From: Candidatus Hydrogenedentota bacterium
GTDB taxonomy: Bacteria > Hydrogenedentota > Hydrogenedentia > Hydrogenedentales > JAJRTN01
NCBI GenBank assembly: GCA_024278275.1
Contig: JAJRTN010000163.1
Span: 1-38,137 of the forward strand
Length of the DNA stretch: 38,137 bases
Direction: 5' to 3'
The notes beneath the pieces were generated by a model. The model saw only the letters and a program-made list of their open reading frames with translations, did no database searches and was not told the DNA's origin. How positions within the stretch are numbered: the first letter of the stretch is position 1; each line of letters starts with the position of its first letter. Positions 19,136 through 26,033 of the stretch are shown here, piece after piece. The position numbers and the translations under genes are program-made.

Positions 19136-21244
19136 TTACACTGGTGGACCCGGTGAAGCCAGCACCGCCAAACGCCAGGGCCCCAGGGAAACATCAGCGA
19201 CCCGTTTATCCGTCAGGGGCACGGGCGTGTCCGTGATAAGATCGTGCAACCGCGATCCGGCAACGAATCCCCTGCGGAACCGCAGGCGCACGGTGTCCAC
19301 CCCGACGGGCGCGAAAACAAAGATTACCGGTTGCCCCTTCGCCGCGCCGTGCTTGACGTATACGAACCGCGCGGCATCGGGCACGGGTGAAAGGACCTCG
19401 ATGTCGGGCATACAACCGCTTTGCCGCGCCAAGTGGTCCGCGAAGTTTTCGAAGCCCTCGGTGAACCGGGTTCGATAGGCCTCGCCGAGGTAGGTCCCGC
19501 AGAGGACGACCCGGCCCCGGCCCACGGGGACCTGCTGAATGAGCGCACCGTCCGAATGGTCGCACCATACCGCGCCCTCGCCACGCGCCCAGGGAGTCAC
19601 CCACTGGGTCAACGCCATTTCCCCGGAGAACCCGTCGCCGGTCACGCGGATCATTTCGCCCGGCAACGACCGGCGGCCCACCTCGGCAAGCCCGGTCAGT
19701 CGTGTGGTGAACCGGTCCTCGGAATAGCGATAGAGCCCGTTGGATTCAAAAGCGCCGCATTCAGATTCACAAACCAGCGTTCCACCGCGTTCGACGAAAC
19801 GCGCCAGGGCCGCCTCGAGGGCCGCGTCGGTCACGAGAAGGTGGGGAAGGAAAAGGATCTTCAGGCCGTCGAGGGCGTCGAGGTGGTCCGCCTCCACCAC
19901 GAGAAAGGGGATGGATTTGCGCACCAGCGCCCGCGTGTAGCCCAGCAGGGCGTTCATGGCCCGCGTGGCGTGGCCCTCCTGGGACCAGCACAGGCGGTAG
20001 GAATCGGGGCTGAACAACACGCCCACCTCGGGCCGGGCCGGCGCGTAGCCCTCCATCGTGTCCGCGTGTCGTTCAAGGAGGTCCGCCGTTTGGCGCATGG
20101 CCGCCAGGCGCGCTTCCGCGAAGCCGTCCTGGCCACACAGACCGAAGCCCCCCGATTAGCTGGTAAAGACCTCATCGCGCCAGCACCAGAAGAGAATGGC
20201 GCTCGCGCCGCCCGCGAAGCCGTTCCAGATCCAGCGCTGCTGCGCGGCGGGGTCCACCGGCTCGTAGACCTCGAAGCCCAGGGACGCGCGGCCGCCCTGC
20301 ACCTCGCTCAGCCAGACCTCCTTGTCGCGGGCGGCGGATTTCACCATCTCCACGCGAATGCCGAAGTCGGCGTCGTCGATGCCGGTCCACTTGGGGAAAC
20401 TGGAACAGCCCACGCCGTCGAGGTGATCGGCGAAATCCCAGTCATTGCCCCGGTTGAGCACCTGGTTATCGGGCGTGCCCGGCCAGTCGGCGCAGGGAAA
20501 CGCGCCGTGTATCGTGACGGGACGGCCGGGATCGAGGGCCTTCATGAGGTCGTAACGGGCGCGGGCGTGGGCGTTGGTGCGCTCCGTCAGTAAATGGAGA
20601 AACGCCATCATCTCGGTATAGGGGCGGTTGTGCGCCTTGCCGGGGAGCACTTCGTCCCACGCCCCGTAGCGCCGTTTCCACGCGGCGTTCAACCCGTCGA
20701 GGCCGCCATACTTTTCGTCGAGCCGGCGGCGGAATGCGGCGAGGGTGTGCGGGCAATAGCACACCGCGCCATCGGCCTGGACATTCCAGCGGATCTCGTT
20801 CCACGCGTCCCACCCGATGAGGGCGTCGGCGTCGCGATACTGCTCGACGGTCTTCGTGAGGAACCCGGCCATCCGCTCCCACACGCCGGGATGATCGAAG
20901 CACCCGCCGGGGGTGAGGCCGTGGTGGACTTCCTGCCGGTTGGACGACACGACCCGGTGGCCGTCACGGTTGATCATCTCGCTGTCCGGCACGACGCGAT
21001 GGATCCAGTAGGGGTGAATGGCGGCGATGGTGCTCAACACGACCCGCAGCCCATGCTTGTCCGCCAATTCGACCAACCGGTCGTAATCGTCGAAGTTGAA
21101 CGCGCCGGGCTTGGATTCCACCCAGGCCCAAACGACCCAGAGTTGCACCGTGTTCAGGCCGCAGGCCTTGATACGCGCAAAATCCTCTTCCCAATAGCGC
21201 CCCTCGGGAAACGGGGGCCGGTAATACTGTGTACCGAGAATCAT
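19136..21244 (-). pseudogene. GH42-type beta-galactosidase, interrupted by an ochre stop
   Basis: One continuous frame of 703 codons from ATG 21244 to the stop at 19136, broken only by TAA at 20156-20158 (codon 363). Before the stop lies a (beta/alpha)8 glycosidase: LGTQYYRPPFPEGRYWEEDF, the acid/base Glu in DAWNE (residue 150) and the nucleophile Glu in LSEVQGG (residue 314). After it comes the continuation SGGFGLCGQDGFAEARLAAM and a GH42 trimerisation-like domain (PEVGVLFSPDSYRLCW; LFLPHLLVTDAALEAALARF), then a small beta domain. Family members read through this point without a break, so a one-base change (for example GAA to TAA) is sufficient. As read, the first 362 residues and a possible restart at 20098 would be separate. 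It neighbours the Gfo/Idh/MocA and GH4 genes, suggesting galactoside use. Confidence 0.82.
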
Positions 21245-24145: not shown

Positions 24146-24922
24146 TTAAGGCGTCTGGGGCTGGATGGTGACTTGCGGCTCGCCGCGCTTGATGTCCGTC
24201 ACTTCCATATCGAATATAAGAACACTGTTCGGCGGGATGGGGCCGCGTCCGGCGTCACCGTAGGCGAGTTGCGCGGGGATGGTCACTTCGTACTTCGCCC
24301 CCTTGGGCATGAGCTGAACCGCCTCGATCCAGCCGGGAATCACTTTCCACGGGGGACTCAGGCGAATGGGCTGACGTCCCTTTGAACTGTCAAACTCCCC
24401 GCCGTCGATGAAACGGCCCGTGTAATCTATCCATACCGTGTCGTTCTGGGTGGCGGGCTCGCCGTCGCCCGGCTCGATGACCCTGTACTGGAGACCGCTG
24501 TCCGTGGTGACCACGCCGGGCTTGGCCCCGTTCTCTTCCAGGTACTTCGCGCCGCCCATAAGGGCTTCGGCCCCGCGCTTCTCCATTTCCTTGTCGCGCT
24601 TGGCCTTTTCGGCCTTGGCGCGCTCCTGAAGGCGCTGGCTGACCACGTTGATGGCCTCGAACATTTCGGACTGGGACATGCGGGGTTCGCGCCCCTCGAA
24701 TACGTCCTTGAGGCCCTCGACGAAAACGTCCATGTTCAATTCGTAAACGTCGGTATAGACGCTGTTGCCGACCTTGATGCCCAGGGCATAACTAATCTGG
24801 TCGTTCAGGTCGGTATAGGCGGGCGCCTTCTTCTCGCTGCCCGCATCCTGCGCGGTGGCGATGACGGGTGCGCCGAGTAACGCCAATATCACGCATAAAG
24901 CGGCGATGTGCCGGATGGTCAT
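24146..24922 (-). CDS. Exported FKBP-type peptidyl-prolyl isomerase
   Basis: A 258-residue periplasmic prolyl isomerase of the FkpA/Mip type. It has a signal peptide (MTIRHIAALCVILALLGAPVIATAQD), then a helical N-terminal dimerisation segment with a long charged helix (about residues 95-125, rich in K, E and R), then the FKBP domain with DSGLQYRVIEPG, DYTGRFIDGGEFDSS, IPGWIEAVQLMPKG and LAYGD...PPNSVLIFDMEV containing the active-site residues. AAGAAGGGA lies seven bases before ATG 24922; the upstream open frame is inside the small-RNA region. It ends at a strong intrinsic terminator and is probably a single-gene unit just downstream of sRNA C. Confidence 0.93.
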   Translation of the reverse strand: MTIRHIAALCVILALLGAPVIATAQDAGSEKKAPAYTDLNDQISYALGIKVGNSVYTDVYELNMDVFVEGLKDVFEGREPRMSQSEMFEAINVVSQRLQERAKAEKAKRDKEMEKRGAEALMGGAKYLEENGAKPGVVTTDSGLQYRVIEPGDGEPATQNDTVWIDYTGRFIDGGEFDSSKGRQPIRLSPPWKVIPGWIEAVQLMPKGAKYEVTIPAQLAYGDAGRGPIPPNSVLIFDMEVTDIKRGEPQVTIQPQTP

Positions 24923-25052: not shown

Positions 25053-25085
25053 AAAAAAGGGCGCGCCAATGTTTCATGACGCGCC
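25053..25085 (-). terminator. Intrinsic terminator of sRNA C
   Basis: Reverse-strand GGCGCG (25080-25085) pairs with CGCGCC (25060-25065), followed by CTTTTTTC (six T at 25053-25058). Confidence 0.7.
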
Positions 25086-25220
25086 ATCCGAGGGTGGGCC
25101 TCCCCACCATCTGCCAGCGCACGTCCGGCGTCACGCCAAACGGCCCGTCGCGGTGCCAAGACCTGCGAAGTTGACTTCCCTGTCCGGCGCCCTCCCGACA
25201 TCCCTGTCGCCGCCGCGATG
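25053..25220 (-). ncRNA. Predicted CsrA-sponge small RNA C (third of array)
   Basis: A predicted RNA of about 168 nt, start inferred about 7 nt after a sigma-28-type -10 element. The first hairpin, CGACA-GGGA-UGUCG (25196-25209), contains ACAGGGAUGU, an exact fit to the CsrA selection consensus ACARGGAUGU. The second is GAC-AGGGAA-GUC (25173-25184). Further GGA motifs follow, including one in a GGUGGG/CCCACC hairpin and a CGGAUGG before the terminator. The gene lies 9 bp from the end of sRNA B and upstream of FKBP. No start codon, binding site or conserved frame is shared with the sister copies. CsrA titration is inference from motif and structure. Confidence 0.65.
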
Positions 25221-25226
25221 CATTTC

Positions 25227-25253
25227 CTATCGGCATCAAGAGAAAAAACTTGA
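25227..25253 (-). promoter_or_regulatory. Sigma-28-type promoter of sRNA C
   Basis: Reverse strand reads TCAAGTTT, 11 bases, GCCGATAG, against the FliA consensus TAAAGTTT-N11-GCCGATAA. The -10 differs only at its last base, the -35 at one position, and the spacing is exact. Confidence 0.75.
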
Positions 25254-25257
25254 ACAC

Positions 25258-25295
25258 CAAACAATGAAGAGCGCCACGGGGGTTACCCGCGGCGC
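25258..25295 (-). terminator. Intrinsic terminator of sRNA B
   Basis: Stem GCGCC/GGCGC with inner CGGG/CCCG (25271-25295), followed on the reverse strand by TCTTCATTGTTTG. The T-tract is interrupted, weaker than in copies A and C. Confidence 0.55.
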
Positions 25296-25439
25296 ATCTC
25301 GGAGGTAAGACCTGGGACCTGGCGATTTCTTAAACGGCGGGGGATAAACCGCCTCGCTGTGGTCTTCCAGGGTATTACGTTAGGCGACATCCGTGTCTGA
25401 TTGTCCGGGGCCTCGACCTCCCTGTCTCGGCCGCTCATG
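25262..25439 (-). ncRNA. Predicted CsrA-sponge small RNA B (second of array)
   Basis: A predicted RNA of about 178 nt. It opens with GAC-AGGGAG-GUC (25415-25426) inside a longer GGCC-GA...GA-GGCC helix, then GACA-CGGA-UGUC (25386-25397), with a free GGA between them and another in CUGGAAG near 25366. A larger stem (CCUGG/CCAGG enclosing GGCGG/CCGCC) occupies the middle. A conserved CCUCC element (25301-25305) just before the terminator could pair with the GGAGG of the first hairpin. The layout is the same as in sRNAs A and C although the sequences differ, with compensating changes in the stems. The promoter at 25446-25472 is the best sigma-28 match in the array. Confidence 0.65.
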
Positions 25440-25445
25440 ATGTAA

Positions 25446-25472
25446 TTATCGGCAGAATGCGTGACATCTTTA
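25446..25472 (-). promoter_or_regulatory. Sigma-28-type promoter of sRNA B
   Basis: Reverse strand reads TAAAGATG, 11 bases, GCCGATAA: an exact -10 element, TAAAG at -35 and the exact FliA spacing. Confidence 0.78.
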
Positions 25473-25541: not shown

Positions 25542-25568
25542 ATATCGGCAAAAGCGGGCAAAACTTGA
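25542..25568 (-). promoter_or_regulatory. Fourth sigma-28-type promoter, no sRNA body
   Basis: Reverse strand reads TCAAGTTT, 11 bases, GCCGATAT. Downstream there is no GGA hairpin and no terminator before the sRNA B promoter 70 bp further on, so transcripts from here would run into sRNA B as a 5'-extended form, or this is the remnant of a deleted copy. Confidence 0.65.
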
Positions 25569-25828: not shown

Positions 25829-25860
25829 AAAAGAAAACGCCACAACGGGACGTTATGGCG
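25829..25860 (-). terminator. Intrinsic terminator of sRNA A
   Basis: Stem CGCCA/TGGCG with inner AACG/CGTT (25838-25860), followed on the reverse strand by TTTTCTTTT (25829-25837). This fixes the direction of transcription as leftward. Confidence 0.8.
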
Positions 25861-26000
25861 CCTCTCATGGAGGATAAGACACTGTGATACGAAACCGGTC
25901 GCGTGATGCCGGGACAAGCATCCCGGTGGCGTATCGGGTCCTATCGTCGTGACCTCCGTGTCAGGGTTTTACGGCCTCGACCTCCTTGTCTCCGCCGGTG
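25829..26000 (-). ncRNA. Predicted CsrA-sponge small RNA A (first of array)
   Basis: A predicted RNA of about 172 nt. The first hairpin is GAC-AAGGAG-GUC (25979-25990) and the second UGAC-ACGGAG-GUCA (25950-25963), separated by about 15 nt. GGA also occurs in AUAGGACC and in the CCGGGA/UCCCGG stem. A middle helix GAUACG/CGUAUC encloses that stem. GUCUUAUCCUCC (25869-25880) matches the same element in sRNA B. The clean terminator and the upstream sigma-28-type promoter delimit the gene. It is divergent from the DUF1800 gene (ATG 26127). Frames through the three copies are not conserved because gaps between them are not multiples of three. Confidence 0.7.
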
Positions 26001-26006
26001 ATAAGT

Positions 26007-26033
26007 CTATCGGCCCGGAACGGGATTTCTTTA
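26007..26033 (-). promoter_or_regulatory. Sigma-28-type promoter of sRNA A
   Basis: Reverse strand reads TAAAGAAA, 11 bases, GCCGATAG: -35 core TAAAG exact, -10 seven of eight, spacing exact for FliA-type promoters. Confidence 0.75.

Follow-up and report, generated by a model that had tools for sequence, protein, structure and literature searches.

CsrA is thought to be restrained by small RNAs (sRNAs) in Gammaproteobacteria and by FliW in most other bacteria. FliW shows a strong anti-correlation with BarA-UvrY, the driver of the Gammaproteobacteria sRNAs (PMC4682653), and according to a 2020 review a joint action of FliW and sRNAs on CsrA was still undetermined for any species (PMC7652899). 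Control of flagellin by CsrA and FliW is known in several bacteria, and sigma28-dependent flagellar sRNAs are known in Escherichia coli (PMC10578931) and, as CJnc170, in Campylobacter (PMC11187230). McaS of E. coli is a dual sRNA combining base pairing with CsrA sequestration. Here a family of sRNA genes from Candidatus Hydrogenedentota is described, whose members are likely to be dual trans-acting RNAs that are made with sigma28, bind CsrA and, in most cases, pair with the mRNA of a specific flagellin. All of the evidence is comparative; what the comparison showed was the gene architecture, the covarying hairpins, a complementarity specific to flagellin, and joint occurrence with flagellin, FliA, FliW and CsrA.

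The window, i.e. the whole stretch of DNA analysed, was 38,137 nt long. A sequence-only reading had claimed that CGACAGGGAUGUCG was encoded at 25196-25209 in an sRNA designated C, that it folded into a 5-bp stem capped by a GGGA tetraloop, that ACAGGGATGT within it fitted ACARGGAUGU, the CsrA selection consensus, and that the sister copies had close variants. The plus strand at 25196-25209 was read directly as CGACATCCCTGTCG, so the minus-strand transcript is CGACAGGGATGTCG and the first claim held. The minimum-energy fold of copy C was (((((....))))) at the site, and ACACGGATGT and ACAGGGAGGT were found in copy B and ACAAGGAGGT in copy A; copy A further had ACACGGAGGT, and copy C had ACAGGGAAGT. 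The consensus match held for the 10-nt core. The full SELEX consensus is RUACARGGAUGU, with R-U wanted in front of the core; the site has C-G there, so the exact match is limited to the core.

The same reading had proposed a comparison with shuffled sequence. GACANGGANGTC occurred seven times in the window versus 0.10 expected, and none of 100 shuffles reached seven. Six of the matches (form GACANGGANGUC) were pairs in three tandem intergenic copies, A, B and C, and the seventh, at 20315, lay within a region of long ORFs. ACARGGAKGT was matched four times versus 0.16 expected. Four paired motifs were detected in the 5.35-Mb genome (three in the window and one on contig C130) and none of the reversed pattern. 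The three copies were flanked by genes for an FKBP-type isomerase (24146-24922, minus strand) and a DUF1800 protein (from 26127, plus strand). A TMAA-N15-GCCGATA promoter, which corresponds to the sigma28 (FliA) consensus of the literature, occurred four times in the window versus 0.02 expected. The features are listed below, where R1 is a covariance model of the promoter and 5′ domain.

26008-26033, minus: copy A promoter, TAAA-N15-GCCGATA (pattern count in window)
25831-26004, minus: copy A sRNA, ~175 nt (R1, 63 bits)
25979-25990, minus: copy A motif 1, GACAAGGAGGTC (motif count)
25951-25962, minus: copy A motif 2, GACACGGAGGTC (motif count)
25860-25887, minus: copy A antisense element, complement of the flagellin-2 start region (GCCACTCATGGAGGAAAAGACAATGGGA, contig C71; local alignment)
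25829-25861, minus: copy A terminator hairpin, GCGCCATAACGTCCCGTTGTGGCG, and T-rich tail (covarying stem)
25543-25568, minus: fourth promoter of sigma28 type, lacking a motif pair of its own, ahead of the copy B promoter (pattern count in window)
25447-25472, minus: copy B promoter, TAAA-N15-GCCGATA (pattern count in window)
25262-25440, minus: copy B sRNA, ~180 nt (R1, 68.3 bits)
25415-25426, minus: copy B motif 1, GACAGGGAGGTC (motif count)
25386-25397, minus: copy B motif 2, GACACGGATGTC (motif count)
25300-25318, minus: copy B antisense element, GTCCCAGGTCTTACCTCCG, complement of the flagellin-3 start region (CGGAGGTAAGATTATGGGAC, contig C71; local alignment)
25271-25295, minus: copy B terminator-like hairpin
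25228-25253, minus: copy C promoter, sigma28-type, TCAA-N15-GCCGATA (pattern count in window; aligned with relatives)
25053-25222, minus: copy C sRNA, ~170 nt, two CsrA-type hairpins and a terminator, without antisense element (R1, 48.9 bits, E 6.6e-13)
25197-25208, minus: copy C motif 1 (the site of the original claim, inside 25196-25209), GACAGGGATGTC (motif count, fold)
25173-25184, minus: copy C motif 2, GACAGGGAAGTC (motif count)
25060-25085, minus: copy C terminator-like hairpin, then CTTTTTT

The promoter at 25543-25568 may possibly be a distal promoter of copy B, a role that is inferred only. A small-protein reading of the copies was rejected: the ORFs were short (median longest, 26 codons) and the family varied by indels.

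Comparison was extended to 68 genomes of the phylum, all within one order. Paired motifs were found in 41 of them, and the reversed pattern in none. In most of 64 loci CCGATA preceded the motif, usually at 20-26 nt from motif 1; for the -10 element the usual distance was 14-20 nt. The TMAA-N15-GCCGATA promoter was outside the motif search pattern, yet it preceded most family members. A terminator with a covarying stem was located at the RNA end. Members thus had a promoter and terminator of their own, and no conserved ORF. By this comparison of gene architecture, copies A-C belong to an undescribed sRNA family of four parts: promoter, two hairpins, a 3′ antisense element (in most members) and terminator. 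Transcription by sigma28 is inferred from the literature consensus and from co-occurrence (below), without transcript data. A search of Rfam at gathering score, models of CsrB, CsrC and RsmX/Y/Z included, gave no match, and relaxed thresholds gave weak matches, all to unrelated families. No description of the family was found in the literature searched; coverage was partial, so this absence is weak evidence.

Some members departed from the usual layout. Six (L345, L346, L349, L352, L353 and L355) lacked it and had several hairpins with CAUCCCU-type loops in the 3′ half, for which the AGGGAU loops in flagellin leaders would be possible pairing partners. L361 had the GACAGGGATGTC motif within the loop of its terminator hairpin, and the 3′ element of L343 and L344 was GCGAACCTCCAAGAG, unlike the flagellin-type elements.

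Two hairpins per member presented ANGGAN loops and were supported by compensatory changes; the first was extended, beyond a GA/GA or AA/AA step, by an outer GCC/GGC stem. The first family set had been gathered by exact motif, so motif invariance within it proves little. R1 found further members that broke the exact motif; in these the GGA loop was kept and GAC/GUC gave way to AAC/GUU, GGC/GCC, GAU/AUC or CAC/GUG. In 21 matches from model-chosen loci, a set largely free of exact-motif bias though including one weak partial match inside L361, 97.8% of cells paired, and both-sided changes occurred in 16 cells versus 4.1 in shuffles (none of 500 shuffles reached 16). That these hairpins bind CsrA is inferred, there being no binding data for the lineage.

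R1 matches were obtained in 47 of 49 flagellin-bearing genomes (42 strong) and in none of 19 flagellin-less ones. Many weak R1 matches were flagellin leaders rather than sRNAs, and five of the 47 genomes had weak matches only, maybe such leaders, so 42 genomes are safe. The window's genome encodes CsrA, and csrA adjoins fliW (e.g. contig C69 of genome G000). Among 60 genomes, csrA and an R1 match were both present in 37, both absent in 18 and discordant in five; R1 matches for which no csrA was found were in G017, G031, G040 and G052 (60-94% complete). FliA_WhiG was above cut-off in 45 of the 68 genomes, 42 of which had an R1 match. The sRNA family was retained across about ten families and lost together with flagella, its losses coinciding with those of csrA, fliW and fliA. 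Fifteen of the 19 flagellin-less genomes fell in family f10, of which genus g19 retained everything. G024 (100% complete), G025 and G005 had no flagellin, csrA, fliW or fliA; in G058, an incomplete genome, flagellin was missing and csrA, fliW and fliA were present. Because the genomes are related, Fisher p-values overstate the case, and the separate losses carry more weight.

The flagellin leaders themselves resembled two-site CsrA targets, as inferred from sequence. CANGGAG was present at the Shine-Dalgarno (SD) position in 121 of 126 leaders versus 11 of 162 other start regions (mechanical ORFs, also used as controls below), and an upstream hairpin with a GGA loop in 97 of 126 versus 15 in shuffled sequence. 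Of the 126 leaders, 19 had the same sigma28-type promoter in front, versus none for the reverse strand.

In most sRNAs the 3′ half was antisense to a flagellin start of the same genome, over a stretch leading from CUCA across the SD as far as AUGGGA, and the match extended past the SD on both sides. Ranks by RNA duplex energy, computed for entire tails and a small pool, were mixed, since a long GC-rich tail will pair with anything; local alignment of the whole 3′ region against two control sets was used instead. Over 55 sRNAs, the match to own flagellin starts surpassed that to other SD-bearing starts (p 1e-9) as well as that to flagellins of other families (p 2e-6); these p-values are too small because the genomes are related. 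Taken singly, 34 of the 55 exceeded the SD-start control at 0.05 and 12 of 55 the other-family control. About a third of the members tested, copy C among them, showed no significant flagellin complementarity.

The window's genome had eight flagellin-N matches in all, and G000 contig C71 (L243) carried four tandem flagellin genes with differing start regions. Copy A fitted flagellin 2 (28-nt alignment, four mismatches), copy B fitted flagellin 3, and the C130 member had a weak fit to flagellin 1, its score of 24 not exceeding the controls; in local alignment of the copy C 3′ region, none of the flagellins of its own genome fitted. The best targets differed among members in most genomes with at least two members. 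In several genomes GGAGGGTAA flagellins were accompanied by TTACCCTC elements and GGAGGTAA flagellins by TTACCTCC elements, G018 being an exception; this correspondence is what pairing would predict. Pairing in the cell remains an inference, without pairing data for the lineage.

The central claim of the sequence-only reading, a CsrA target in sRNA C, is thus well supported comparatively though not by binding data, since the genome encodes CsrA, the paired hairpins covary, csrA co-occurs and flagellin leaders share the GGA-hairpin logic. Its interpretation was incomplete: the sigma28-type promoter and the antisense match to flagellin mRNAs were not named, and the copy reported is the atypical one, without antisense element.

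Outside the phylum, a partial motif-pair scan of GTDB gave matches that mostly resembled coding sequence or simple repeats, Hydrogenispora excepted, and a sigma28-plus-motif search of 21 genomes drawn from that scan found Hydrogenispora only. In its phylum, Bacillota, a sigma28 promoter with the motif was detected in eight of 398 genomes (the reversed pattern in one); one of the eight matches was a flagellin leader, which served as a positive control. Hydrogenispora and relatives (L333, L338 and L339) encoded a minimal RNA of ~75 nt, made up of two GACANGGANGTC hairpins and a terminator behind a sigma28-type promoter; a tRNA gene lay close by in the three genomes and hisIE in two of them. In L340, three GGA motifs (GAACAAGGACGTTC, GACAAGGATGTC and GACAAGGAAGTC), possibly a three-site form, stood behind a promoter of the TAAA-N15-CCGATA type. 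Separately, a repeated element with GACATGGATGTC and GGACAGGGAYGTCC was observed in Salinicola, Halotalea and a groundwater gammaproteobacterium (L076, L088, L089, L098, L102, L105, L125 and L130), with several copies per genome in some.

In the proposed mechanism, active FliA would lead to synthesis of the sRNAs, which would bind CsrA through the ANGGAN loops of their 5′ half. Most members would then pair with the start region of one chosen flagellin, blocking or retuning its translation, and CsrA might bridge the sRNA and the flagellin mRNA. A decoy role towards CsrA is proposed for members that lack an antisense element, e.g. copy C. For particular flagellins, repression is inferred to be likelier than activation, because the pairing covers the ribosome site.

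Among the alternatives, the one that survives best is that the RNAs are flagellin antisense sRNAs for which CsrA is merely a stabiliser or pairing helper (a chaperone, as reported for SR1 and ahrC), CsrA levels being unchanged. This remains possible: most genomes have one member per flagellin, each RNA has two sites, few in comparison with CsrB, and promotion of SR1-ahrC pairing by CsrA has been cited (PMC7652899). Against it, members without the antisense element retain the CsrA hairpins and promoter, and the Bacillota form has nothing besides these. Alternatively, the RNAs could be pure decoys like CsrB or RsmZ, which, while FliA is active, would do no more than draw CsrA away from its mRNAs, those of flagellin included, with a structural 3′ half and an incidental flagellin fit. 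Copy C and several relatives have CsrA hairpins and no flagellin match, and the ~75-nt Bacillota versions consist of two hairpins and a terminator only; but the fit of the 3′ element is far closer for flagellin starts than for other starts with an SD, and closer for flagellins of its own genome than for those from other families, and the match passes the SD on both sides, so this reading is unlikely. A DNA repeat or flagellin-leader relic without RNA function is more doubtful still. The copies are tandem, and flagellin leaders share the order of promoter and GGA hairpin and match R1 weakly; however, covariation preserves the hairpins and the terminator stem, the similarity to flagellin starts is antisense rather than sense, and the elements were kept across about ten families and lost with flagella. 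Chance GGA hairpins in GC-rich intergenic DNA, where GGA is common, are practically ruled out by the counts (seven matches versus 0.10 expected; paired motifs in 41 of 68 genomes versus none reversed).

The preferred reading therefore remains that of dual sRNAs. It could be extended to a joint claim that one sigma28-made sRNA per flagellin paralogue exists phylum-wide, that FliW-balanced CsrA is the matchmaker through GGA hairpins in both RNAs, that the cell thereby selects which flagellin is translated, and that a minimal CsrA-decoy form exists independently in Bacillota; taken together, these propositions go further than we are inclined to follow, if not by much.

Under the dual-sRNA reading, one lineage has both FliW and sRNAs with CsrA sites, the latter apparently tied to sigma28 and directed at flagellin. 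Concrete sequences are now at hand for the question of joint FliW and sRNA action, and the family offers a possible means of choosing among flagellins in multi-flagellin bacteria.

The family resembled CsrB/CsrC and RsmX/Y/Z of Gammaproteobacteria in that the RNA is non-coding, carries more than one hairpin loop of ANGGA type, ends in a terminator and comes from a CsrA-encoding genome. It differed from them in having two sites only, in the presence of FliW, in the antisense element of most members, in a sigma28-type promoter instead of BarA-UvrY (GacA) control, and in matching none of their Rfam models at gathering score. As in McaS, CsrA sites and an mRNA-pairing region occurred in one RNA, but the lineage and promoter type were different, the targets were flagellin starts and several paralogues had different targets. 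Like the sigma28 sRNAs of E. coli (PMC10578931) and CJnc170 (PMC11187230), which are made under FliA and act on flagellar genes, the family would link FliA to flagellar expression; the E. coli sRNAs, however, are UTR-derived and CsrA is not mentioned for them (PMC10578931), and for CJnc170 the relevant sections of PMC11187230 do not describe a CsrA site. A role for CsrA in helping an sRNA meet its mRNA has likewise been proposed for SR1 and ahrC of Bacillus subtilis (cited in PMC7652899). Closest at the flagellin gene itself was the FliW-CsrA-hag switch of B. subtilis, with csrA beside fliW and a flagellin leader containing one GGA hairpin and one SD site; to that switch as described, Hydrogenedentota add sRNAs with CsrA sites.
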